A stretch of DNA of 64,000 nucleotides from Cynocephalus volans (lineage: Eukaryota > Chordata > Mammalia > Dermoptera > Cynocephalidae), in NCBI RefSeq assembly GCF_027409185.1, contig NC_084463.1, positions 50,152,907 to 50,216,906 on the forward strand, in the 5' to 3' direction. The notes beneath the pieces were generated by a model, which was given only the letters and a program-made list of their open reading frames with translations, had not been told where the DNA came from and did not search any database. This document shows, piece after piece, positions 6,577 to 52,915 of the stretch; the stretch's first letter is position 1, and the number at the start of each line of letters is the position of its first letter. A program made the position numbers and the translations under genes.

Positions 6577-6580
6577 CCAG
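6577..6580 (+). other. Target-site duplication (left), CCAG
   Basis: CCAG directly precedes the 5' LTR and recurs immediately after the 3' LTR at 15326-15329. Four-base duplications are typical of gammaretroviral integrase. Confidence 0.93.
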
Positions 6581-6791
6581 TGAAGAAAGAACTTTTTAAG
6601 CTAGCCGTAGTAACGCCATTTTGCAAGGCACAAAACATTACCCTGGTTAAAAGTCCCTAGCATAGGAAAAGTACAGCCTGAGGTTGAGACCAGATAACGA
6701 ACAGGATATCTGTGGTTATGCACCTGGGCCCCGGCCCGAGGCAAAGGGCGGATAGTTCCCAGAAATAGACAAGTCAGTTAAAGTTTCAAGA

Positions 6792-6945
6792 GTGCCCCTC
6801 AGCTGTTTCAAGGACTCCCAACAGTTTCCAGGGTGCCCCTCAGCTGTTTCAAGGACTCCCAACAGTTTCCAGGGTGCCCCTCAGCTGTTTCAAGGACTCC
6901 CACCAGTTTCCAGGGTGCCCCTCAGCTGTTTCAAGGACTCCCACA
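6792..6945 (+). repeat. U3 enhancer array, four 41-bp units
   Basis: Units begin GTGCCCCTCAGCTGTTTCAA at 6792, 6833, 6874 and 6915, exactly 41 bp apart. The last is cut short near 6945. Units 1 and 2 are the same; the third differs by one base (CCAACAG to CCACCAG). The CAGCTG E-box is repeated four times. Direct repeats of U3 enhancers are common in exogenous and recently active gammaretroviruses. The same array recurs in the 3' LTR at 14873-15026. Confidence 0.93.
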
Positions 6946-6967
6946 TAACCGAAGCTCACCCCAGGCC

Positions 6968-7063
6968 TTATTTGAACTGACCAATTAAACTCGCTTCTCG
7001 CTTCTGTACCCGCGCTTATTTGAACTGACCAATTAAACTCGCTTCTCGCTTCTGTACCCGCGC
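6968..7063 (+). repeat. U3 promoter-proximal duplication, two 48-bp units
   Basis: Two perfect 48-bp copies, 6968-7015 and 7016-7063, each contain GACCAATTAAAC (a CCAAT box) and end GTACCCGCGC. They lie just upstream of the TATA box, so the CCAAT box is doubled. The duplication also occurs in the 3' LTR. Confidence 0.93.
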
Positions 7064-7070
7064 TTTTTGC

Positions 7071-7077
7071 TATAAAA
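7071..7077 (+). promoter_or_regulatory. Proviral TATA box
   Basis: TATAAAA sits about 30 bp upstream of the inferred R start (GCGCCAGTC at 7101), with CCAAT boxes in the duplicated units just before it. Confidence 0.9.
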
Positions 7078-7147
7078 AGGACCCAGGAGCTTCACTCGGC
7101 GCGCCAGTCTTCCAAAAGACTGTGTCGCCCGGGTACCCGTGTGTTCA

Positions 7148-7153
7148 AATAAA
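7148..7153 (+). terminator. LTR polyadenylation signal
   Basis: AATAAA within CAAATAAACCTCTTGCTGTTTGCA, the standard gammaretroviral R-region context. The likely cleavage site is the CA at about 7169. The copy in the 3' LTR (about 15229-15234) is the one that would end viral transcripts. Confidence 0.88.
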
Positions 7154-7246
7154 CCTCTTGCTGTTTGCATCCGTCTTCGTGGTCTCGCTGTTCCTTGGGA
7201 GGGTCTCCCTGAACTGACTGACTACCCACTTTGGGAGTCTTTCATT

Positions 7247-7264
7247 TGGGGGCTCGTCCGGGAT
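7247..7264 (+). other. Primer binding site for tRNA-Pro
   Basis: The 18 bases TGGGGGCTCGTCCGGGAT follow the 5' LTR after two T residues. This is the established complement of the tRNA-Pro 3' end used by MLV, GALV and KoRV to start minus-strand DNA synthesis. Confidence 0.95.
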
Positions 7265-7526
7265 CGGAGACCCCCACCCAGGGACCACCGACCCACCAAC
7301 GGGAGGTAAGCTGGCCAGCAGTCGTTCTGTGTCTCGTTTCTGTGTCTCGTTTCTGTGTCTAATCCTGTGACTCTGACTGTCTTTCTGAGTGCGCGCATTT
7401 TGGTTTCAGTTTGTTCCGGGTTAGTCGCTCTGGGAGCGAAGTGCGGGTAGCGAACAGACGTGTTCGGGGGCTCGCCACCCGGCAATCCTGGGAGACGTCC
7501 CAGGATCAGGGGAGGACCAGGGACGC
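7265..7526 (+). promoter_or_regulatory. Retroviral leader with splice donor
   Basis: This is the untranslated leader between the primer site and the gag extension. A splice donor consensus GGAG/GTAAGC lies at 7305/7306 and would give the spliced env mRNA. At 7325-7355 a 13-bp unit (TTCTGTGTCTCGT) is repeated two to three times. The packaging signal is expected downstream of the donor by analogy with MLV, but I cannot fold it here. Confidence 0.75.
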
Positions 7527-9275
7527 CTGGTGGACCCCTTGGCAGAGGATTATTGTGTTTTGGTCTCACCGCGTCTCGGGAGGCGCGCTCTGCCATCGGA
7601 CTCTTTCTTCTATTTCTACGGCACTCGGTCTCGTCGCCGTTTCTGGTTTCTTTTTGTCTTAGTTGTGATAGGTCTTTGCGTCGTCGTTCCCCTATTGGAA
7701 ATTTTCGAGATGGGGCAAGGTGCCCTTACGCCTCTCTCCCTTACTCTAGATCATTGGAAAGATGTCAAAGCCAGGGCTCACAATCTGTCCATGGAGATCA
7801 AAAAAGGAAAATGGCAGACTTTCTGTTCGTCTGAGTGGCCCACATTCGGCGTAGGTTGGCCGCCAGAGGGAACCTTTGACCTTTCTGTCATTTTTGCAGT
7901 TAAAAAGATTGTTTTTCAGGAGACCGGAGGACACCCGGACCAGGTTGCCTATGTCGTGGTATGGCAAGACCTCGCCCAGAATCCCCCTCCCTGGGTGCCA
8001 CCCTCCAGCAAAGTCGCTGTTGTTTCGGGATCAGAAAATACTCAAAGGCCACCTACAAGGAAGCCTTCCGCCCCTCCCCAACCCCCCGTCCTCCCGACAC
8101 CAGATGACCTATTTTCTCTCTCTGAACCCCCACCTTACCCGGCGGCTCCGCTGCCCCCTCTGGCCCCTCAGGGAAACAGATCGGCACCAGGCCGAGCGCC
8201 CGGTGATCCTAGCCCTGAGGGACCGGCTGCGGGGACTAGGAGCCGCCAACCTCGCAGTCCGAGAGACGGCTCCGGTCCTGACTCCACCGTAGCTTTGCCC
8301 CTCCGAGCCATAGGGCCCCCAGCTGAGCCAAATGGCTTGGTCCCTTTGCAGTATTGGCCTTTTTCCTCAGCAGATCTTTACAATTGGAAGTCTAACCATC
8401 CTTCTTTTTCTGAAAAACCAGCAGGTCTCACGGGACTTCTTGAGTCCCTTATGTTCTCTCACCAGCCCACTTGGGACGATTGCCAACAGCTACTCCAGAT
8501 CCTCTTCACCACTGAAGAGCGAGAAAGGATTCTTCTGGAGGCCCGCAAGAACGTTCTCGGGGATAACGGGGCCCCTACACAACTCGAGAACCTCATTAAT
8601 GAGGCTTTCCCCCTCAATCGACCTCAATGGGATTACAACACGGCCGAAGGTAGGGAGCGTCTTCTGGTCTACCGCCGGACTCTAGTGGCAGGTCTCAAAG
8701 GGGCAGCCCGGCGCCCCACCAATTTGGCCAAGGTAAGAGAGGTCTTGCAGGGACCGGCAGAACCCCCTTCGGTTTTCTTAGAACGCCTAATGGAGGCCTA
8801 TAGAAGGTACACTCCGTTTGAACCCTCTTCTGAGGGGCAGCAGGCTGCGGTCACAATGGCCTTCATCGGCCAGTCAGCCCCAGACATTAAAAAAAGGTTA
8901 CAAAGACTAGAGGGGCTCCAAGACCTTTCCTTACAAGACTTAGTAAAGGAGGCAGAAAAGGTGTACCACAAGAGAGAAACAGAAGAAGAAAGACAGGAAA
9001 GAGAAAAAAAAGAGACAGAAGAGAGAGAGAGGCGGCGTGATAAACGCCAAGAAAAAAATTTAACTAGGATTTTGGCCGCAGTGGTAGGTGAAAGAGGGTC
9101 TAGAGATAGGCAGACAGGGAACCTGAGCAACCGGGCAAAGAAAACACCTAGGGATGGAAGACCCCCTCTAGACAAAGACCAATGCGCGTACTGTAAAGAG
9201 AAGGGTCACTGGGCAAGAGAATGTCCCCGGAAAAAGAACATCAGAGAAGCCAAGGTTCTATCCCTAGATGACTAG
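7527..9275 (+). CDS. Probable glycoGag (N-terminally extended Gag)
   Basis: The gag frame stays open upstream of the gag ATG. A CTG at 7527-7529 in frame, followed by G, is the likely non-AUG start, as in MLV. The 61 extra codons from the CTG include Arg-rich residues, then a strongly hydrophobic run ([16 protein letters not shown]) shortly before the gag Met. That run suits a signal-anchor putting the protein into the ER membrane as a type II protein. GlycoGag in MLV aids particle release and counters host restriction. The role here is inferred from position and topology only. The CTG start is not proven; an in-frame GTG follows directly. Confidence 0.55.
7710..9275 (+). CDS. gag: Gag polyprotein
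   Basis: An intact 521-residue Gag ending in TAG at 9273. Matrix: begins MGQG with Gly2 available for myristoylation. p12-like region: carries PSAP (119-122, TSG101-type late domain) and PPPY (140-143, NEDD4-type late domain). Capsid: about 195-460, with the major homology region near 348-367 and a highly charged, coiled-coil-like segment at 420-450. Nucleocapsid: one CCHC zinc knuckle (C492, C495, H500, C505) among basic residues. The ATG at 7710 is chosen because MGQ is the gammaretroviral matrix start. It assembles particles at the plasma membrane and packages the RNA. No lesion is seen. Confidence 0.96.
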
Positions 9276-9330
9276 GGGAGTCGGGGTTCGGACCCCCTCC
9301 CCGAACCTAGGGTAACATTGACAGTGGAGG
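9273..9330 (+). promoter_or_regulatory. Amber readthrough site between gag and pol
   Basis: The gag stop TAG is followed by GGG and a GC-rich stretch with complementary GGTTCGG and CCGAACC segments able to pair. pol continues in the same frame. Gammaretroviruses read through this UAG at a few percent, driven by a downstream pseudoknot, to make Gag-Pol. The pairing here is inferred by eye, not folded. Confidence 0.8.
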
Positions 9331-12300
9331 GGACCCCCATCGAGTTTCTGGTCGATACCGGGGCTGAACATTCGGTGCTGACCCAACCCATGGGGAAGGT
9401 AGGGTCCAGGCGGACAGTCGTAGTAGGAGCGACCGGCAGCAAAGTCTACCCCTGGACCACTCAGAGACTTTTAAGGGTCGGACATAGGCAAGTGACCCAT
9501 TCCTTTTTGGTCATACCTGAGTGCCCTGCTCCTCTGTTGGGCCGGGACATCCTGACCAAACTAAAGGCTCAAATCCAGTTTTCCACAGAGGGCCCACAAG
9601 TAACATGGGGAGATCACTCTACCATGTGCCTGGTCCTAAACCTAGAAGAAGAATACCGGCTGTATGAAAAGCCGGCCTCTCCCTCCATCGACCCATCCTG
9701 GCTCCAACTTTTTCCCACCGTATGGGCAGAAAAGACAGGTATGGGACTGGCCAATAACGTCCCACCAGTAGTAGTAGAGCTGAAATCAGGTGCCTCACCG
9801 GTGGCCGTCCGACAGTATCCAATGACTAAAGAAGCCCGGGAAGGCATCAGACCCCACATCCAAAGGTTCTTAGACCTAGGGGTCTTAGTGCCCTGCCAAT
9901 CGCCCTGGAACACCCCTCTGCTACCAGTAAAAAAGCCAGGGACCAATGACTATCGGCCAGTCCAAGACTTGAGAGAAATTAACAAAAGGGTGCAAGACAT
10001 TCATCCCACGGTCCCAAATCCATACAGCCTCCTGAGTTCCCTTCCGCCTAGTCACACTTGGTACTCAGTCCTGGATCTCAAGGATGCCTTTTTTTGCCTC
10101 AGACTACACCCCAACAGCCAGCCACTGTTCGCGTTCGAGTGGAGAGACCCAGAAAAAGGTAACACAGGTCAGCTGACCTGGACACGGCTGCCACAGGGGT
10201 TCAAAAATTCTCCCACTCTCTTCGACGAGGCCCTCCACCGAGATCTAGCTCCTTTTAGGGCTCTCAACCCCCAGGTCATATTACTCCAATATGTGGACGA
10301 CCTCCTAGTGGCAGCTCCCACATATGAAGGCTGCAAAAGAGGGACACAAAAGCTCTTGCAGGAACTGAGTAAGTTGGGGTACCGGGTATCAGCTAAAAAG
10401 GCCCAGTTATGCCAGAAAGAGGTCACCTATTTGGGGTACCTGCTCAAAGGGGGAAAAAGATGGCTGACCCCGGCCCGGAAAGCTACAGTTATGAAGATCC
10501 CTACTCCCACAACCCCCAGGCAGGTCCGCGAATTTCTGGGTACTGCCGGATTCTGCAGGCTCTGGATTCCTGGGTTTGCTTCCCTGGCTGCACCCTTGTA
10601 CCCCCTGACAAGGGAAAACATTCCTTTTACCTGGACTGAGGAGCATCAAAAGGCTTTTGACCACATAAAAAAAGCCTTGCTGTCTGCCCCCGCCTTGGCT
10701 CTCCCAGACCTCACCAAATCATTTACTCTGTACGTAGATGAAAGAGCCGGTGTAGCCCGAGGAGTGCTTACTCAGACCCTAGGACCATGGCGACGGCCAG
10801 TAGCTTATCTATCAAAAAAACTGGATCCAGTGGCCAGTGGGTGGCCAACCTGCCTAAAAGCGGTTGCTGCAGTGGCACTCCTCCTCAAAGACGCTGATAA
10901 GTTAACCTTGGGGCAAAATGTGACTGTGATTGCTTCCCACAGCCTCGAAAGTATCGTGCGGCAGCCCCCCAATCGGTGGATGACCAATGCCAGAATGACT
11001 CATTACCAGAGTTTGCTGCTAAACGAAAGAATATCTTTCGCGCCCCCTGCTGTCCTGAACCCAGCTACCCTACTACCAGTCGAGTCAGAATCCACCCCAG
11101 TACACCAATGCTCAGAAATCCTTGCTGAAGAAGCTGGGACTCGACGGGACCTGAAGGACCAGCCATTGCCCGGAGTGCCTGCCTGGTATACAGACGGTAG
11201 CAGCTTCATTGCGGAAGGTAAGAAGAAAGCAGGGGCCGCCATCGTAGATGGCAAACGGACGGTATGGGCAAGCAGCCTGCCAGAAGGGACATCAGCCCAG
11301 AAGGCCGAGCTAATAGCCTTGACGCAGGCATTACGCCTAGCCGAAGGAAAAAACATCAACATCTACACGGACAGCAGGTATGCTTTTGCCACTGCTCACA
11401 TTCATGGGGCAATATATAAACAGAGGGGACTGCTCACTTCTGCTGGAAAAGACATTAAAAATAAACAAGAAATTCTGGCTCTGCTAGAGGCCATTTACCT
11501 CCCTAAGCAGGTCGCCATTATCCACTGCCCAGGCCACCAGAGAGGAAATAACCCTGTGGCGGCCGGGAACCGGAGGGCCGACGAGGCTGCAAAACAAGCC
11601 GCCCTGTCGGTCAAGGTGCTAACAAAAACTACAAAGCTTCAAGAGCCAATCGAGCCTGCTCAAGCTAGGACCAAGCCAAGAGAGCTCACTCCTGACCAGG
11701 GAAAAGAATTCATTCAGCGGTTACATCAGCTAACACACTTAGGACCAGAAAAGCTCCTTCAACTGGCAAGCCGCACCAGCCTCTCCATCCCGAACCTCCG
11801 GTCCACTGTTCAAGAAGTCGCCAATCGGTGTCCAGCTTGCGCCATGACTAATGCGGCTACCACCTACCGAGAGACCGGAAAAAGACAACGGGGAGATCGA
11901 CCCGGCGTATACTGGGAAGTAGACTTTACAGAGGTAAAGCCTGGCCGGTATAGAAACAAGTATCTGCTAGTATTTGTAGATACTTTCTCTGGATGGGTAG
12001 AAGCTTTTCCTACCAAAACGGAAACGGCCCTGACTGTATGTAAAAAGATACTAGAAGAAATCCTGCCCCGTTTCGGGATCCCTAAGGTGATCGGGTCAGA
12101 TAATGGCCCAGCCTTTGTTGCTCAGGTAAGCCAGGGACTAGCCACACAACTGGGGATAAATTGGAAATTACATTGTGCGTATAGGCCCCAGAGCTCAGGT
12201 CAAGTAGAGAGAATGAATAGAACCATCAAAGAGACCTTAACTAAATTGGCCTTAGAGACCGGTGGAAAAGACTGGGTGGCCCTCCTTCCCTTAGCGCTGT

Positions 12301-12773
12301 TCAGAGCCAGGAATACCCCTGGCCAGTTCGGTCTAACTCCCTATGAAATCCTCTACGGGGGACCCCCCCCCATACTTGAGTTGGGAGAAACACTGGGTCC
12401 CGATGATAATTTTCTCCCTGTCTTATTTACCCACTTAAAGGCTCTAGAAGTTGTGAAGACCCAGATTTGGGACCAGATCAAAGAGACATATCAGCCCGGT
12501 ACCATAGCTGTCCCCCACCCGTTCCAGGTCGGAGACCGAGTGCTGGTCAGACGCCATCGACCCAGCAACCTTGAGCCTCGGTGGAAAGGCCCGTATCTGG
12601 TATTGCTGACCACCCCGACCGCAGTAAAAGTTGATGGCATCGCTGCCTGGGTCCATGCTTCCCATCTCAAGCCTGCACCACCCCCGGCACCAAACGAGAC
12701 CTGGGAGCTGGAAAGGACTGATCATCCTCTTAAGCTGCGTATTCGGCGGCGGAAAAATGAGTCCACCGGGTAA
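9276..12773 (+). CDS. pol: Pro-Pol polyprotein (protease, RT, RNase H, integrase)
   Basis: 1165 codons, open from the amber codon to the stop at 12771, made only as Gag-Pol by readthrough. Protease: DTGA catalytic motif at 9354. Reverse transcriptase: YVDD at 10290-10301. RNase H: first Asp in YTDGSS at 11193, then Glu in KAELIAL, Asp in YTDSRYA and Asp in NRRADEA, so all four metal ligands are present. Integrase: HHCC zinc domain (LHQLTH, then CPAC), then the DDE triad at Asp 11922, Asp 12099 and Glu 12207. The 3' end overlaps the env signal-peptide frame, as usual in this genus. No frameshift or stop is seen, so it looks functional. Confidence 0.96.
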
Positions 12774-14618
12774 GAACCCCCACCGGCCTGTGATCCTCAC
12801 CTGGAAGGTACTGTCCCAAACTGGAGAAGTTGTCTGGACCAAACAGGCTACCCAGCCGCCTTGGACTTGGTGGCCCGATCTTAAACCTGATGTATGTGCC
12901 CTGGCGGCGGGTATTGAGACCTGGGATATCCCGGGATACATAGCATCGGGCTAGGCCCAGATCAGACCCCCTGATTCAGACTACACAAAAGCTTATAATC
13001 AGATCACCTGGGGGGTCCCAGGGTGCAGCTATCCCCGAGCTAGAAACAGGCTTGCCGCTTCCCCCTTCTACGTGTGCCCCCGGGATGGCCGGACCCTTTC
13101 AGAAGCTAGAAGGTGCGGAGGGCTGGAATCCCTATATTGCAAAGAATGGGGTTGTGAAACCACGGGGACAGTCTACTGGGGACCTAGTTCCTCATGGGAC
13201 CTCATAACTGTAGAACGTAACGATAGCAGTAAAAACTGTGACAACACCGGCTGGTGTAACCCCCTTAAAATAAAATTCACAGAGAAAGGAAAAAATTCCA
13301 GAGATTGGGCACAAGGAAGAACCTGGGGACTAAGGTTCTATTTGACGGGAAACGATCCAGGTGTACTGTTCACCATTCGCCTAGATATCACCAATATGCC
13401 AACTGTGGCAGTGGGCCCCGACCCCGTCCTTGCAGAACAGGGACCTCCTAGCAACAAGCTGTACCCAATGACTAGCAGGCAACCCCCCCCGCGGCACAAA
13501 GGAGCACTGCTACACAGAGCCTCCTATCACCAGGCACTCTACCCCCCACCACGGGTGACAGGCTCTTTGGTCTTGTACAGGGGGCCTTCCTAGCTCTAAA
13601 TGCCACCAACCCGAACGCCACAGAGCATTGCTGGCTCTGTCTGGCCATAAGCCCCCCCTACTATGAAGGAATAGCCTTTTTGGGAGAGGCCAATTATACC
13701 AGCGCCGAGAGTTGCCGTTGGGGGACCCAGGGAAAGCTTACTCTCACAGAGGTCACAGGACAAGGGTTATGTATAGGAACAATACCTTCTACCCATCAAC
13801 ATCTTTGCAACCAGACCCTATCCATCAATTCCTCCGGGGACCATCAGTACCTTCTCCCCTCCAACCATAGCTGGTGGGCTTGCAGCACCGGTCTCACCCC
13901 TTGCGTTTCCCTCTCAGTTTTTAATCAGTCTAAGGATTTCTGTGTCCAGGTTCAGCTGATTCCTCGCATCTATTACCATCCTGAAGAAACTTTGTTGCAG
14001 GCCTATGACAACCCTCATCCCAGGTTTAAGAGAGAACCTCTCACACTTACCCTAGCTGTCCTACTGGGAATTGTGGCAGGTATAGGTACCGGCTCGGCTG
14101 CTCTGATTAAAGGACCTATAGACCTCCAGCGGGGCCTAACCGAGCTCCAGACTGCCATGGACACTGACCTCCGGGCCCTCCAGGATTCAGTCAGCAAGTT
14201 AGAGGACTCATTGACTTCTCTATCTGAGGTAGTACTCCAAAATAGGCGAGGCCTTGACTTACTGTTTTTAAGAGAGGGAGGCCTCTGCGCGGCCCTCAGA
14301 GAGGAGTGCTGTTTTTATGTAGACCATTCAGGTGTGATACGAGACACCATGGCCAAACTCAAACAAAGACTAGATAAAAGACAGTTAGAGCGCCAAAAAG
14401 ATCAAAACTGGTTTGAAGGTTGGTTCAATAGCTCCCCTTGGTTCACTACCCTACTATCAACCATCGCCGGGCCCCTAGTACTCCTTCTTCTGTTGCTCAT
14501 TCTGGGGCCCTGTGTCATCAACAGGTTAGTCCAATTCATCAATGATAGAATAAGTACAATTAAAGTCCTGGTTCTTAGACAAAAATATCAGACTATAGAT
14601 AATGAAAATAACTTTTAA
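12634..14618 (+). pseudogene. env: Env glycoprotein gene, broken by a stop and a frameshift
   Basis: It starts inside pol at ATG 12634 or ATG 12655; a hydrophobic run (LIILLSCVF) gives the signal peptide. A splice acceptor candidate (CCTTCCCTTAG) ends at 12294. Surface subunit: a TAG at 12952-12954 stops the frame after about 100 codons. The frame then continues with a receptor-binding region that includes CETTG and ends at a TAG at 13591. Homology switches frame within the proline-rich region, most likely at the run of eight C at 13483-13490, a net loss of one base or gain of two. CWLC (disulfide isomerase-like) is at 13629. The furin-type site RFKR ends at 14033. The transmembrane subunit (194 residues) is intact, with fusion peptide, immunosuppressive region near 14235, CX6CC near 14286, Leu-rich anchor and cytoplasmic tail. 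No full-length Env can be made as read. Confidence 0.92.
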
Positions 14619-14645
14619 CTCCGCTCTAAGATTAGAGCTATCCAC

Positions 14646-14661
14646 AAAAGAAATGGGGGAA
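14646..14661 (+). other. Polypurine tract
   Basis: A purine run with a single T (AAAAGAAATGGGGGAA) directly abuts the 3' LTR TG at 14662. It primes plus-strand DNA synthesis. Confidence 0.92.
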
Positions 14662-15325
14662 TGAAGAAAGAACTTTTTAAGCTAGCCGTAGTAACGCCAT
14701 TTTGCAAGGCACAAAACATTACCCTGGTTAAAAGTCCCTAGCATAGGAAAAGTACAGCCTGAGGTTGAGACCAGATAACGAACAGGATATCTGTGGTTAT
14801 GCACCTGGGCCCCGGCCCGAGGCAAAGGGCGGATAGTTCCCAGAAATAGACAAGTCAGTTAAAGTTTCAAGAGTGCCCCTCAGCTGTTTCAAGGACTCCC
14901 AACAGTTTCCAGGGTGCCCCTCAGCTGTTTCAAGGACTCCCAACAGTTTCCAGGGTGCCCCTCAGCTGTTTCAAGGACTCCCACCAGTTTCCAGGGTGCC
15001 CCTCAGCTGTTTCAAGGACTCCCACATAACCGAAGCTCACCCCAGGCCTTATTTGAACTGACCAATTAAACTCGCTTCTCGCTTCTGTACCCGCGCTTAT
15101 TTGAACTGACCAATTAAACTCGCTTCTCGCTTCTGTACCCGCGCTTTTTGCTATAAAAAGGACCCAGGAGCTTCACTCGGCGCGCCAGTCTTCCAAAAGA
15201 CTGTGTCGCCCGGGTACCCGTGTGTTCAAATAAACCTCTTGCTGTTTGCATCCGTCTTCGTGGTCTCGCTGTTCCTTGGGAGGGTCTCCCTGAACTGACT
15301 GACTACCCACTTTGGGAGTCTTTCA
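14662..15325 (+). repeat. Provirus 3' LTR
   Basis: 664 bp, TG to CA, with no difference from the 5' LTR found on line-by-line reading. It includes the four 41-bp enhancer units (starts 14873, 14914, 14955, 14996) and the two 48-bp units. LTRs are equal at integration, so absence of differences means little time since insertion, or later gene conversion. Confidence 0.95.
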
Positions 15326-15329
15326 CCAG
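15326..15329 (+). other. Target-site duplication (right), CCAG
   Basis: This matches the CCAG at 6577-6580, so the provirus is a clean single integration and not a recombinant between two proviruses. Confidence 0.93.
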
Positions 15330-18430: not shown

Positions 18431-20265
18431 TTTTCCTTCCATTGTTTATTTTCAGGGTTTCCGCTGCATTCTGCTGGTAAACGCTCCACTCTGAGGCTGT
18501 CTCTGTAGCATTCAGGGGCTCAAAGAATTCAGTAAAAGGGGAACAAATGTCTACACTTCAGCTTACTATTCCCACGAGTAGGACCGGCAGGACAGCAACA
18601 AAGGCCCCAGTCCTAATTGTAATAGTTTCATATTTTTATAGAAATGATTCAAATTTTCCAGGTGAGACTAAATTGGTTCTCATGACAAACACTTGAAAGC
18701 AATTAACTTAAAAACATTCAAGCAATTGTTTCCTACCACAGAGGGCAGCGTTACTTGTTCTGTATTTAGAAGCTGTTTCCTGAGCGACCCCAGTTATATC
18801 ACTAGGGGGAGAACCCGAGCCTCTCCTCAGTGCTCTCTCCTCTTCCAGCTTTTCTCAAGTCATCTTCTCTCTGCACCACCAAGTTGGTGGCATGGTATCT
18901 GGAGAGTGAGAAGGCATCCCCATGGGGCCCAGTGGGTGCATCCCTGTCCTTGGCCACCCTGCCCAGTTCTCAGCACGCCTCTCCAGCTTTGGGTCCACAT
19001 GGTTTTGAGTCAAGGATTCACATGGGACCTGACATGCATGTTGCCTGCAAACCCCTGGACGCAAAACCCTTGCTGGGCTTTATCAGTCCTGCTGCGCTTC
19101 CTGGACAGGTCCATTTCTTTCTGCTCAGAATTAACACTGCCTAGTGCAGAGCTGTGCCCCTTCGGCACAGACAGTCCTGGGGATGTAACACAAATGTGTG
19201 TGTTGGAAAGGCTTCCTTGAGTACTATATTATTAGTCTGCTTCTGTTTATAACAGTCTCTGCGTACCGTTTTCTGGACAGTCCTTCAAGGATTTGTCATC
19301 AGCTTACTTACGTACATTCGAAAAGTGGAGATTTTAATTGTGTGCGTACTCATTTAGTTGCTATAGCGTTTGAATTGAGTCGGCAGGATATAGGCCGGGC
19401 TCAGAGGCTTCCAAATCCCACTATTGCATTCTGAGAGCCTCTTACTCACACCCCTTGCTATTCATAAGAGCACTTTTTACTATCATTGCTTCTACATGCA
19501 ATACAAGCCTCCTTCACTCAACTGTAAGCCCCTGGAAAACCGAGTGGCCAGTGACAGTAGGGAATGGATTTTACTCTGTGTTCCCAGCACCAGACAGTGC
19601 CTGGCTTCCATTAATTTAATAAAGCCTTTAGTGAATAATTGTAATTTGTACTCAAGAAAGAAAATTCTTACATCTGTATCCTTACAGCCATTCTCAAGCT
19701 ATCCCGACCTAAACGCCACTATTGGGTTCCTGGCTAACCAGCCTGCTGACAGGATTTCTCCTCAAATTGATTCCTCGCCCCTCATCCCCAGATTATCAGT
19801 CTACTTTGCAGGCCTGGGAAGCCTGTTTCAACGTGCCGGCATGTGGGCCATCCATGCCAGACACTGCTCAGGAAGTTAACTACCCGGGGTAGAGCAGCTC
19901 CTTCCACTTAGGCTGTTAACACGTGACTCTGGACTTTTGGCCTAACTGGAGATGAGGTGAGAACACACACGCCTCTAACCAGCCCCACAGCAGATGGGCC
20001 ACGTTAACAATGCGCCCACTCACTAGGCTTCCAACCTAATTGACACTAAGGGGAGTTAGCGCGCGCCTAACTAGGGTGCCGTCTGAACAGATGCTCCAGT
20101 TCGTGCAGACAACTAGCGGGGCTCGTAACCTAATGGGCATGGCTGAGTTACCGCAAACACCTCATTAGGTTTATTACCTACCTAATTGATAAGCGAACAG
20201 AGAGGACAGAACCGGCTCCGACCGCCGAAAGAAGCCCCCTGGATGCCCGGAAACCCGCTATGTTA
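18431..20265. other. Unassigned intergenic DNA upstream of the histone gene end
   Basis: Open frames at 18693-19220 and 19424-19879 look fortuitous: no start context, domain or codon pattern was recognised. 19900-20180 repeats short CCTAAC/CCTAAT-like motifs without a clear unit. No RNA gene was seen. Confidence 0.45.
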
Positions 20266-20268
20266 CAG

Positions 20269-20279
20269 CCACTTTCTGT
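20269..20279 (-). promoter_or_regulatory. Candidate histone downstream element
   Basis: On the minus strand the purine-rich ACAGAAAGTGG lies 12-22 bases after the histone stem-loop, where U7 snRNA pairs in replication-dependent histone pre-mRNAs. It is assigned by position and purine content. Confidence 0.55.
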
Positions 20280-20290
20280 ACCAAACGGGT

Positions 20291-20306
20291 GGCTCTGAAA
20301 AGAGCC
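20291..20306 (-). terminator. Histone 3' stem-loop
   Basis: On the minus strand this reads GGCTCTTTTCAGAGCC, a perfect match to the conserved 6-bp stem and 4-base loop bound by SLBP. It lies about 40 bases after the H3-like stop codon, the usual distance. It makes this a replication-dependent histone gene, or a recent derivative of one, and not a processed H3.3 copy. Confidence 0.95.
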
Positions 20307-20345
20307 TTTGGAATGACAGGACCTCAGGGCGATCGCCCGTGGAGC

Positions 20346-20738
20346 CTAGAAAGGCGTCCCGCGGAGGCGGCGGGCCAGCTGCATGTCTTTGGGCATGACG
20401 GTGACACGCTTGGCGTCCGCAAACAGCCCCACCAAGTAGGACTCGTAGGCCTCCTGGAGCGCCATCATGGCCGACATCTGAAAGCGCAGGTCTGTCTTGA
20501 AACCCTGCGCGACCTCTCGGATCAGCCTCTGGAATGGCAGTTTGCGGACCAGCAGGTCGCTGGATTTCTGGTAGCGGCGAATCTCGCGTAGCGCCACCGA
20601 GCCGGGCCGATAGCGGTACGGCTTCATCACACCGCCGGTGGCCGGTGCGCTCTTGCGGGCTACCTTCCCGGCCAGCTGTTTCCGCGGCGCCTTGCCGCCG
20701 CCGTTCGACTTCCGCGCCTTCTGCTTGGTGTGATCCAT
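20346..20738 (-). CDS. Divergent replication-type histone H3 variant
   Basis: An intact single-exon frame of 130 residues; canonical H3 has 135 after the Met. The ATG at 20738 is chosen because the N-terminus aligns there (MDHTKQ) and its context GTCATGG is strong. Kept: K4, K9, S10, K14, K18, K23, K27, K37, the helix 1-2 core ([19 protein letters not shown]) and K79. Changed: A1D, R2H, T6K, T11N, one extra Gly before K14, K36 to Met (codon 20625-20627), D77G, and a 7-residue loss between Asp106 and Ala114 that removes C110 and H113. Met90 and Ser87 suggest descent from H3.1/H3.2 and not H3.3. Promoter, stem-loop and open frame argue for a live gene. The loss at the H3-H3' contact argues for altered nucleosome behaviour or early decay. 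Germline expression is a guess. Confidence 0.85.
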
Positions 20739-20800
20739 GACCACGAGGGGACTCCCGCTGCCTCAGCTCCAACTGGCGCTGAGCGCCTCAGCGCTCTCGC

Positions 20801-23077: not shown

Positions 23078-23186
23078 TGACTCGTTTATTTATTTATTTT
23101 GGGCACTGGCCAGCGAGGAGATCTGAACCCATGACCTTGGAGTTGTTAGCTCCACACTCTGACCAACTGAGCTAACTGGCCAGTCC
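23078..23186 (-). repeat. tRNA-Ile-like SINE, minus strand
   Basis: A T-rich start (TTTATTTATTTATTTT) leads to 'GGAGATCTGAACCCATGACC' and the end 'CAACTGAGCTAACTGGCCAG', the reverse complement of the SINE head. Confidence 0.85.
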
Positions 23187-25456: not shown

Positions 25457-25573
25457 ACTTTTATTTTTATTTTATTTTGTGGGGGAGGTGGCTGGCCAGT
25501 ACAGGGATTGAACCCTGGATGTGAGTGTTATCAGCACCATGCTCTAACCAGATGAGCTACATGTCCAGCCCCA
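25457..25573 (-). repeat. tRNA-Ile-like SINE, minus strand
   Basis: A T-rich start, then 'AGGGATTGAACCCTGGATG', 'TTATCAGCACCATGCTC' and 'TAACCAGATGAGCTACATG'. Confidence 0.8.
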
Positions 25574-34643: not shown

Positions 34644-34826
34644 AATGTGAATAAATTTTTTTTTTTAAAAAGATGACCAGTAAGGGGATCTTAACCCTTG
34701 ACTTGGTGTTGTCAGCACCACGATCTCCCGAGTGAGCGAACCGGCCATCCCTATATAGGATCCGAACTCTTGGCCTTGGTGTTATCAGCACCACACTCTC
34801 TCGAGGGAGCCACGGGCCATCCCTAA
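34644..34826 (-). repeat. Dimeric tRNA-like SINE, minus strand
   Basis: A T-run at 34650 is followed by two tandem tRNA-like units. Each has a 'GTCAGCACCAC' or 'ATCAGCACCAC' block and a GGATC B-box remnant, separated by CCATCCCTATATAGGATCC. Read on the minus strand the heads are GGCCCGTGGCTCCC and GGCCGGTTCGCTCACT. Dimeric tRNA-derived SINEs are known in colugos and in some bats. Confidence 0.8.
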
Positions 34827-38414: not shown

Positions 38415-39750
38415 TATCTTGAACTAGACAAGGATGCCCACTCTCACCACTCCTATTCAACATAGTGTTGGAAGTACTAGCCAGAGCAATCAGAGAAGAG
38501 AAGGAAATAAAGGGCATCCAGACTGGAAAAGATGAAGTCAAACTGTCCCTGTTTGCAGATGACATGATCCTATATATCGAACAGCCTAAAACCTCAACAA
38601 AAAACCTCTTGAAATTGATAAATGATTTCCGCACAGTAGCAGGATACAAAATCAACACACAAAAATCAGTAGCATTTCTTTTCTCCAATAGTGAACATGC
38701 AGAACAAGAAATCAAGAAAGCCTGCCCATTTACGATACCCACCAAAAAAATAAAATACTTAGGAATTGAGTTAACCAAGGAGGTGAAAAATCTCTATAAT
38801 GAGAACTAAAAACCACTGCTGAGAGAAATTAGAGAGGATACAAGAAGATGGAAAGATATCCCATGCTCTTGGATTGGAAGAATCAACATAGTGAAAATGT
38901 CCATACTACCCAAAGTGATATACAAATTCAATGCAATCCCCATCAAAATTCCAAAGACATTTTTCTCAGAAATGGAAAAAACCATCTAGTCATTTATATG
39001 GAACAATAAAAGACCACGCATAGCCAAAGCAATGCTGAGCAAAAACAATAAAGCTGGAGGCATAACACTACCTGACTTTAAGCTATACTACAAAGCTATA
39101 ATAACCAAAACGGTATGGTACTGGCATAAAAACAGACACACTGACCAATGGAATAGAATAGAGAATCCAGAAATCAACCCACACATTTACTGCCATCTGA
39201 TCTTTGAAAAAGGCACCAAGCCTATTCACTGGGGAAGGGACTGCCTCTTTAGCAAATGGTGCTGGGAGAACTGGATATCCATATGAATGGATACTAGACC
39301 CATACCTCTCACGATATACTAAAATCAACTAAAAATGGATTAAGGATTTAAATATACACCCTGAAACAATAAAACTTCTTAAAGAAAACATAGGAGAAAC
39401 AGTTCAGGAAATAGGACTGGACACAGACTTCATGTGTACGACCCCAAAAGCACGAGCAACCAAAGGAAACATAAACAAATGGGATTATATCAAATTAAAA
39501 AGCTTCTGCACAGCAAAAGAAACAATTAACAGAGTTAAAAGACAACCAACAGAGTGGGAGAAAATATTTGCAAAATATACATCTGACAAAGGATTAATAT
39601 CCAGAATATATAAGGAACTCAAACAACTTTACAAGAAAAAAACAAGCAACCCAATTTAAAAATGGGCAAAAGAGATAAGTAGGCATTTCTCTAAGGAAGA
39701 TATACAAATGGCCAACAGACATATGAAAAAATGCTCAAGTAAAATAGGAA
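38415..39750 (+). mobile_element. Truncated L1, ORF2 part (copy 1)
   Basis: Begins inside ORF2 reverse transcriptase (GCCCACTCTCACCACTCC). A frame at 38465-38809 encodes the FADDMILYI catalytic box, and frames at 39032-39286 and 39432-39659 give later ORF2 pieces. The 5' part is missing, the frame is broken by stops, and the element ends without a poly-A tail, so it is inactive. It shares about 1.1 kb with copy 2. Confidence 0.9.
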
Positions 39751-40545
39751 AACATTTCAATACGAAGATTGATTACTAGGTTATATTCAGTTACAGGTAC
39801 CGAAGTAGGAGTAAAGTTCTAATACTTGTTAGTGAAAAGAACAAGGCTGTAAAAATTGTCTAATGGAAGACCAATTGGCATTACTTTTGATGGATCAAAG
39901 TTTGGGGCAAGAACATGAAGAAAAATGGCATGAAGATTTGGAGGACTTCTATTTTCTTTCCTGTTCACTCTTAACAAGTATAAAGGCAAACAGTAAAAAT
40001 GTTTTGAAAGCCACTTTCTCTAGGGAGGCACAATGTTTTTTATAATTCAGCTGATCTCACATTAACTTTGGGGCACTCTCCTTGAAAAACGGGAAGCTTA
40101 ACTCCCTGAAAAAACGAGGAACTCCCTGAAACAACTAGAAACTTCCCAGAAAGTGGTGCACTCCGCCTTGTGTCGGAAACAAACAAACAAAAACAATCCA
40201 CAGCCTGCCGAAACCTGTTTGTTAAGTAGGGAAGGAAAATGCAGTCAGCCAGACAGTCTAAACACAGGAAGGTTGGGCAGGAGATCAGATCCACGATCGG
40301 AAAGGGAGAAGAAACCGATAAGGCTACGGAAGAAAGCAGCGTCACTCACCAAAACTGGTTTCAGAGGTAAAGTGAGGAGGGTCAGGATGTTTATGATACG
40401 ATCACATTGTGCTGTTAAATCCTGGCACACACCACAGGAGCTGTGACTAAGAGGCACAATTTTAATACTAACTCGTAAGCGCCAATGTGGAACCTACTAA
40501 ATTGTGCTTAGGTGCAAAATGAAACACATTTAATTTAATTTTTTA
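39751..40545. other. Sequence between two L1 copies, possible ERV internal remnant
   Basis: No recognised protein. 'AACTCCCTGAAA' is repeated near 40100 and 40120. It may continue the minus-strand ERV behind the LTR at 37358-37924, interrupted by L1 copy 1. Confidence 0.35.
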
Positions 40546-42193
40546 AAAAAATCAGTAGCATTTCTATTCTCCAATAGGGAACATGCAGAAAGAGAAATCA
40601 AGAAAGCATGCCCATCTACAATAGCCACCAAAAAAATAAAATACTTAGGAATTGAGTTAACCAAGGATGTGAAAAATCTCTATAATGAGAACTACAAACC
40701 ACTGCTGAAATTAGAGAGGATACAAGAAGATGGAAAGATATCCCATGCTCTTGGATTGGAAGAATCAACATAGTGAAAATGTCCATACTACCCAAAGTGA
40801 TATACAAATTTAATGCAATCCCCATCAAAATTCCAATGACATTTTTCTCAGAAATGGAAAGAACTGTCCAGACATTTATATGGAATAACAAGAGACCACG
40901 CATAGCAAAAGCAACGCTGAGCAAAAAAAATAAACCTGGAGGCATAACACTACCTGAATTTAAACTATACTACAAAGCTATAATAACCAAAACAGTATGG
41001 TACTGGCATAAAAACAGACACACTGATCAATGGAATAGAATAGAGAATCCAGAAATCAACTCACACACCTACAGCCATCTGATCTTTGACAAAAGCACCA
41101 AGCCTATACACTGGAGAAGAGACTGCCTCTTTAGCAAATGCTGCTGGGAGAACTGGATATCAATATGCAGGAGAATGAAACTAGACCCATACCTTTCACC
41201 ATACACTAAAGTCAACTAAAAATGGATTAAGGATTTAAATATACACCCTGAAACAATAAAACTTCTTAAAGAAAACATAGGAGAAACAGTTCAGGAAATA
41301 GGACTGGACACAGACTTCATGTATACGACCCCAAAAGCACGAGCAACCAAAGGAAACATAAACAAATGGGATTATATCAAATTAAAAAGCTTCTGCACAG
41401 CAAAAGAAACAATTAACAGAGTCAAAAGACAACCAACAGAGTGGGAGAAAATATTTGCAAAATATACATCTGACAAAGGATTAATATCCAGAATATATAA
41501 GGAACTCAAACTACTTTACAAGAAAAAAACAAGCAACCCAATTAAAAAATGGACAAAAGGGTTAAGTAGGCATTTCTCTAAGGAAGATATACAAATGGCT
41601 AGCCCACATATGAAAAAATGCTCCACATCACTCAGCATCTGGGAAATGCAAATCAAAACTACACTGAGATACCATCTCACCCCAGTTAAGATGGCTAAAA
41701 TCCAAAAGACTCTGAACGATAAATGCTGGCGAGGTTGCGGAGAAAAAGGAACTCTCATACATTGTTGGTGGGACTGCAAAATGGTGCAGCCTCTATGGAA
41801 AATGGTATGGAGGTTCCTCAAACGATTGCAGATAGATCTACCATATGACCCAGCTATCCCACTGCTGGGAATATACCCAGAGGAATTGAAATCATCAAGT
41901 CTAAGGTATACCTGTTCCCCAATGTTCATCGCAGCACTCTTTACAATAGCCAAGAGTTGGAACCAGCCCAAATGTCCATCATCGGATGAGTGGATACGGA
42001 AAATGTGGTATATCTTCCCAATGGAATACTACTCAGCTCTAAAAATGAATGAAATACTGCCATTTGCAACAACATGGATGGACCTTGAGAGAATTATATT
42101 AAGTGAAACAAATGAGGCACAGAAAAATAAATACCACATGTTCTCACTTATTGGTGGGAGCTAAAAATAAATAAATAAATTCACACACACACA

Positions 42194-42237
<44 letters not shown>

Positions 42238-42460
42238 GGGGGGGGGGAAGACATAACAACTACAGTTCCTTGAAGTTGATATGACAAGCAAACAGAAAGG
42301 ACATTGTTGGGAGGGAGGGGGGATAGGGAGGAGGGAGGGAGGTTTCGGTAATGGGCCACAATAATCAACCACATTGTATATTGAGAAAATAAAATTAAAT
42401 TAATAAATGAGTAAATAAATAAATAGATAAATCTTCTATAGTCATAAAAATAAATAAAGA
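40546..42460 (+). mobile_element. 5'-truncated L1, ORF2 3' half and 3' UTR (copy 2)
   Basis: ORF2 frames at 40773-41219 and 41319-42164. The latter holds the C-terminal Cys-rich region ([14 protein letters not shown]) and ends in a MFSLIGGS C-terminus. Then come the 3' UTR with (CA)n, an A-run and a G-run (42181-42248), a purine-rich tract and an A/T-rich tail near 42370-42450. It is truncated and broken, hence inactive, but young-looking. Confidence 0.9.
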
Positions 42461-52094: not shown

Positions 52095-52915
52095 TTTGCT
52101 AATATTGCTTTTGATTATGTCTTTTTTTAAAAAAAAATTTATTTTGTCGATATACATTGTGGCTGATTATTGCTCCCCATCACTAAAACCTCCCTCCCTT
52201 CTCCCTCCCCCCTTCCCCCCCAACAATGTCCTTTCTGTTTGCTTGTCATATCAACTTCAAGTAATTGTGGTTGTTATATCTTCTTCCCCACCCCCCCGGT
52301 TTTGTGTGTGTGTGTGTGTGTGTGAATTTATATAATAATTTTTAGCTTCCACCAATAAGTGAGAACATGTGGTATTTCTCTTTCTGTGCCTGACTTGTTT
52401 CACTTAATATAATTCTCTCGAGGTCCATCCATGTTGTTGCAAATGGCAGTATTTCATTTGTTTTTATAGCTGAGTAGTATTCCATTGTGTAGATGTACCA
52501 CATTTTCCATATCCACTCTTCTGATGATGGACATTTGGGCTGGTTCCAACTCTTGGCTATTGTAAAGAGTGCTGCGATGAACATTGGGGAACAGGTATAC
52601 CTTCGACTTGATGATTTCCATTCCTCTGGGTATATTCCCAACAGTGGGATAGCTGGGTTGTATGGTAGATCTATCTGCAATTGTTTGAGGAACCTCCATA
52701 CCTTTTTCCATAGAGGCTGCACCATTTTGCAGTCCCACCAACAATGTATGAGAGTTCCTTTTTCTCCGCAACCTCGCCAGCATTTATCGTTCAGAGTCTT
52801 TTGGATTTTAGTCATCCTAACTGGGGTTAGATGGTATCTCAGTGTGGTTTTGATTTGCATTTACCAGATGCTGAGTGATGTTGAGCATTTTTTCATACGT
52901 CTGTTGGCCTGATTA
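52095..52915 (-). mobile_element. Truncated L1 3' end, minus strand
   Basis: Same subfamily as 40546-42460: the minus strand encodes 172 residues of ORF2 C-terminus ([20 protein letters not shown] onwards) ending MFSLIGGS, then the G-run and purine-rich 3' UTR. It begins inside ORF2 at about 52915. Confidence 0.88.

Follow-up and report, generated by a model that had tools for sequence, protein, structure and literature searches.

PMC11928578 (2025) reports 434 proviral sequences in the genome assembly of Cynocephalus volans, the Philippine flying lemur, and lists these endogenous retroviruses, called CynVolERVs, as 86 group A, 183 B1, 158 B2, and 5 C sequences. The groups are told apart by short motifs and deletions. 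PQPPVL occurs in every CynVolERV-B sequence except one, PPPY in 111 of the 158 B2 and in 35 B1 copies, and CETTG in all B2; group A has PRPPIY, and group C combines PQPPVL with TPPY. Most B1 copies, but not all, carry a deletion of 133 nt in the RNase H part of pol and another of 1,487 nt in env. According to the same source, heart RNA contained reads of all four groups, and its table scores 11 of 15 samples as positive. Within the literature collection searched, a full-text search for CynVolERV by name returned PMC11928578 alone.

The clade that holds the gibbon ape leukemia virus (GALV) and the koala retrovirus (KoRV) includes, in PMC11928578, the viruses of Syconycteris australis, Rhinolophus hipposideros, and Melomys burtoni. 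PMC11341202 adds that related endogenous retroviruses (ERVs) also exist in African rodents and describes a Mastomys WMV that is endogenous, with identical LTRs and a tRNA-Pro primer site.

Here we analyzed a window of 64,000 nucleotides, the whole stretch of DNA considered, which contains a provirus that shares these three features with the Mastomys WMV. That element is an intact, single, unfixed copy with 96.9% identity to WMV, according to PMC11341202, whereas the env of our provirus is broken. The locus is very probably a member of CynVolERV-B2, a published C. volans group in the GALV/KoRV clade, and a recent germline insertion.

Structure of the provirus

The features of the provirus are collected in Table 1. 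The initial annotation had proposed its outer limits, two 664-bp LTRs without differences, a matching CCAG duplication, a tRNA-Pro primer site, a polypurine tract, and open gag and pro-pol with every catalytic residue. The limits proved exact, and the other elements were all recovered. The two LTRs were alike at 664 of 664 bases, the CCAG copies directly flank the provirus, and the polypurine tract is present with a single T inside. The primer site matched the tRNA-Pro motif at all 18 positions; none of 100 shuffled sequences matched it. By eye, the 5′ LTR also contains a TATA-like box at about 7072 to 7078 and AATAAA at 7148 to 7153. The LTR holds two tandem arrays (listed for the 5′ copy), and changes in their unit numbers could account for the CynVolERV LTR subgroups that have been distinguished by indels.

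TABLE 1 Features of the provirus and its insertion site (positions in the window)
Feature	Position	Strand	Details	Basis
Target-site duplication, 5′ copy	6577–6580	+	CCAG	Read from sequence
Full-length gammaretroviral provirus	6581–15325	+	gag, pro-pol, env between two LTRs	
5′ LTR	6581–7244	+	664 bp	LTR comparison
Tandem array inside LTR	6782–6943	+	41-bp unit, 4.0 copies	Repeat search
Tandem array inside LTR	6967–7069	+	48-bp unit, 2.2 copies	Repeat search
tRNA-Pro primer binding site	7247–7264	+		18/18 match
gag	7710–9275	+	521 codons and TAG; MA, CA, zinc knuckle; PQPPVL and PPPY motifs	ORF, Pfam
gag/pol readthrough pseudoknot GP_knot1	9273–9334	+		Rfam
pro-pol	9276–12773	+	Protease, RT, RNase H, integrase; in frame with gag	ORF, Pfam
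env region, defective	12631–14618	+	CETTG at 13153–13167; SU end and TM open	ORFs, Pfam
Polypurine tract	14646–14661	+	One T	By eye
3′ LTR	14662–15325	+	664 bp, sequence as 5′ LTR	LTR comparison
Target-site duplication, 3′ copy	15326–15329	+	CCAG	Read from sequence

The gag frame runs without interruption from its ATG to the TAG at 9273 to 9275, and the same frame continues open beyond this stop to the end of pro-pol. The stop coincides with the start of the readthrough pseudoknot, which scored 72.4 bits against an Rfam cutoff of 67.7. Pfam domains Gag_MA, Gag_p30, RVP, RVT_1, RNase_H, rve, MLVIN_C, and TLV_coat were present, together with the zinc knuckle. The translated pol contains the protease DTG and the RT YVDD, and the integrase D-D-E was found by alignment to the PFV integrase. 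All four RNase H acids, D-E-D-D, were located by alignment to 4hkq, which we take to be the XMRV enzyme and whose chain itself carries N at the third of these positions. The provirus thus has the LTRs, the tRNA-Pro site, the common gag and pol frame with a readthrough stop, and the 4-bp duplication of a gammaretrovirus. The gag frame is also open 5′ of the ATG, over 7425 to 7709, with three CTG codons and a hydrophobic stretch, as in a glycosylated-Gag leader.

Reverse transcription and integration are evident from this anatomy. A genomic RNA was reverse transcribed from a tRNA-Pro primer, and a gammaretroviral integrase inserted the product and left the 4-bp duplication.

A defective env

Of the open gag, pol, and env of a replication-competent provirus, the third is broken. 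A stop codon at 12952 to 12954 lies early in SU, in the frame that holds CETTG. A change of frame follows in mid-SU, where two open frames overlap at about 13476 to 13593, and the SU end and TM occupy a frame different from that of CETTG, open for 380 codons to the stop that closes the region. These two lesions together leave no continuous Env in the provirus. The initial annotation was silent on this defect; the provirus is an envelope-defective copy.

Age of the insertion

At 2.2 × 10−9 substitutions per site per year, the rate taken from PMC11928578, 2.92 differences between the LTRs are expected per million years. None was observed, so that, gene conversion aside, the upper 95% limit on the age is 1.03 million years and the insertion is younger than about 1 million years. 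The ratio of observed to expected CpG was 0.52 in the provirus versus 0.24 in the flanks; such a contrast fits a young insertion but could equally reflect viral composition. Gene conversion of the LTRs in an older provirus is a highly improbable alternative: PMC11928578 does warn of this bias on LTR ages, but gag and pro-pol remain open over 5 kb and CpG is retained, both of which agree with youth. The proposal of a very young germline insertion therefore holds, given the identity of the LTRs, the age bound, and the open gag-pol.

Relatives of the provirus

A protein search with Gag gave 439 matches, of which the best 120 were considered. Among these, four with an animal name reached at least 88% identity, and all four are predicted proteins of C. 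volans. The closest species-named Gag of this set is C. volans LOC134390667 (P0135), alike at 339 of 347 residues. The Gag of the Syconycteris australis gammaretrovirus was 84% identical over 521 residues; it has PRPPIY where the provirus has PQPPVL, and the provirus differs further by its defective env. In a tree of 27 rows that we picked from the matches, leaving the others aside, the provirus grouped with two C. volans rows (100/96), within a set of eight rows that includes the Syconycteris virus (100/98), with Mus caroli, PERV, and MLV rows apart. The Mus caroli endogenous protein (P0129), likewise a gammaretroviral Gag, was 73% identical and fell outside the ten-row group holding the provirus; we take it to be McERV, the outgroup of PMC11928578.

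The RT search gave 573 matches, the best 120 of which were considered, and a tree of 26 rows of our choice was built. The provirus fell in a clade of five rows (100/99), with PERV, MLV, and REV rows outside. Among its four companions, a 'Gammaretrovirus sp.' pol is 95% identical over 306 columns. Two proteins without names reach 93.5% and 90.6% over 371 residues, and one from C. volans reaches 90.8% over 238; no row of this clade is named as a GALV-group virus. The two nearest rows, the 'Gammaretrovirus sp.' pol and the unnamed protein at 93.5%, rank above the C. volans row, and neither is C. volans by name, which speaks against reading the host from RT.

These two rows, which carry no animal name, would fit a related, unpublished GALV-like ERV of another mammal, and PMC11341202 reports GALV/KoRV-related ERVs from rodents and bats. 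Such an origin is nonetheless very unlikely, considering the Gag matches of at least 88%, whose animal names are all C. volans among the best 120 of 439, and the statement of PMC11928578 that, among 31 Southeast Asian mammal assemblies, matches above 85% were confined to C. volans. C. volans as the likely host is deduced from viral proteins, the 10 flank frames tried having yielded no host gene.

The SU-end/TM piece of Env, compared with predicted viral structures, matched the Rhinolophus hipposideros gammaretrovirus at 80% and the Melomys burtoni retrovirus at 83% identity, followed by a deer ERV at 48% and FeLV at 42%. The structural model of the piece was poor (pLDDT 68.5, pTM 0.36), and only the identities were used; by these, TM resembles members of the GALV/KoRV clade rather than FeLV. 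The best match in a protein search with the Env piece was a pig protein at 62%. This search admitted only proteins of up to 1.75 times the query length, which puts full-length Env out of reach, so that the pig match is no evidence against kinship with GALV. Searches of viral contigs gave 6 pattern matches with the RT piece and 12 with the TM piece, none of them confirmed, in a set that possibly did not include records of the source genome.

GALV and KoRV themselves do not appear by name among the matches listed for Gag, RT, and Env. The kinship with them thus runs via the Syconycteris, Rhinolophus, and Melomys viruses. With this route, membership of the provirus in the GALV/KoRV clade is supported by the Gag and Env comparisons, and the GALV/KoRV-like label first given to it stands on the Gag identity and tree and on the two high Env identities.

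Probable assignment to CynVolERV-B2

The provirus has PQPPVL, PPPY, and CETTG and lacks deletions of the B1 type: its RNase H aligns without a gap of the 133-nt kind, and env keeps CETTG and TM. PQPPVL argues against group A, PPPY against group C, and the undeleted RNase H with CETTG and TM in env against B1, so that B2 remains. This probable assignment is one by motifs and lack of deletions. PMC11928578 describes in CynVolERV-B2 the same three motifs, no large pol or env deletion, and near-zero LTR divergence, all in common with the provirus.

The provirus is quite unlikely to belong to one of the other CynVolERV subgroups (A, B1, C) or to have arisen by recombination among them. Such an origin would accommodate LOC134390667, whose first 347 Gag residues are 97.7% alike and which shares PQPPVL, yet has TPPY where the provirus has PPPY, and it would draw on the 35 B1 copies with PPPY and the B1 copies without deletions in PMC11928578. 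However, the motifs given there for A and C are unlike those of the provirus, and most B1 copies have lost the RNase H and env segments that it retains.

With B2 as the preferred assignment, the initial view of a rare germline copy of the GALV/KoRV group needs revision: the group placing stands, but the family is published and numerous in its likely host, with 434 proviral sequences in PMC11928578. The further suggestion of a family with intact members agrees with that source, in which only nine B2 copies are apparently able to make particles. The B2 group is therefore not new, being published, large, and partly intact, and the provirus is most likely one of the copies described. With it, the insertion coordinates of one further locus are known exactly, so that colugos from islands where samples seemed virus-free could be genotyped for it.

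Possible spread without an envelope

The broken env agrees with the small number of particle-capable B2 copies in PMC11928578. As the two lesions lie beside LTRs with no differences, they may have been copied in; they would have been present already in the parent RNA or been made during the same copying. Judging from its intact LTRs, gag, and pro-pol, the provirus could give rise to particles with enzymes, without a full Env of its own. Its formation probably involved either intracellular retrotransposition or an Env supplied by another copy.

PMC11928578 proposes env-less superspreading for B1, and the provirus could represent a milder case of the same type. We tentatively suggest, as a reading with slightly less than an even chance of being correct, that the env lesions predate the insertion and that the provirus marks a young B2 sublineage, spreading in the colugo germline without its own Env and intermediate between the infectious groups and the B1 copies with a deleted env.

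Flanking sequence

Outside the provirus, none of the 10 flank open frames tried, from a list of 43 open frames, had a Pfam match. By eye, one of the 10, at 41319 to 42164, resembles LINE-1 ORF2. Repeat copies at 38661 to 42396 and 52135 to 52900, of 89 to 94% identity, include one that is LINE-1 ORF2-like by eye and suggest that a LINE-1 was active fairly recently in the host. Comparison of the window with itself gave 23 pairs, several of which fall inside an LTR or link the two LTRs; a swarm of young SINEs was not seen. A B1/Alu-like core had 9 matches versus 2.62 expected, a number reached in 0 of 100 shuffles; although formally an excess, the matches are taken as uninformative, each having two to three mismatches and four lying inside the provirus. 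On the minus strand, a histone 3′ stem-loop within 20263 to 20772 adjoins frame-disturbed, H3-like sequence (by eye), probably a histone pseudogene. Three weak tRNA matches of 35 to 36 bits on the same strand, at 23106 to 23182, 25493 to 25566, and 34674 to 34746, are possibly tRNA-derived SINEs.
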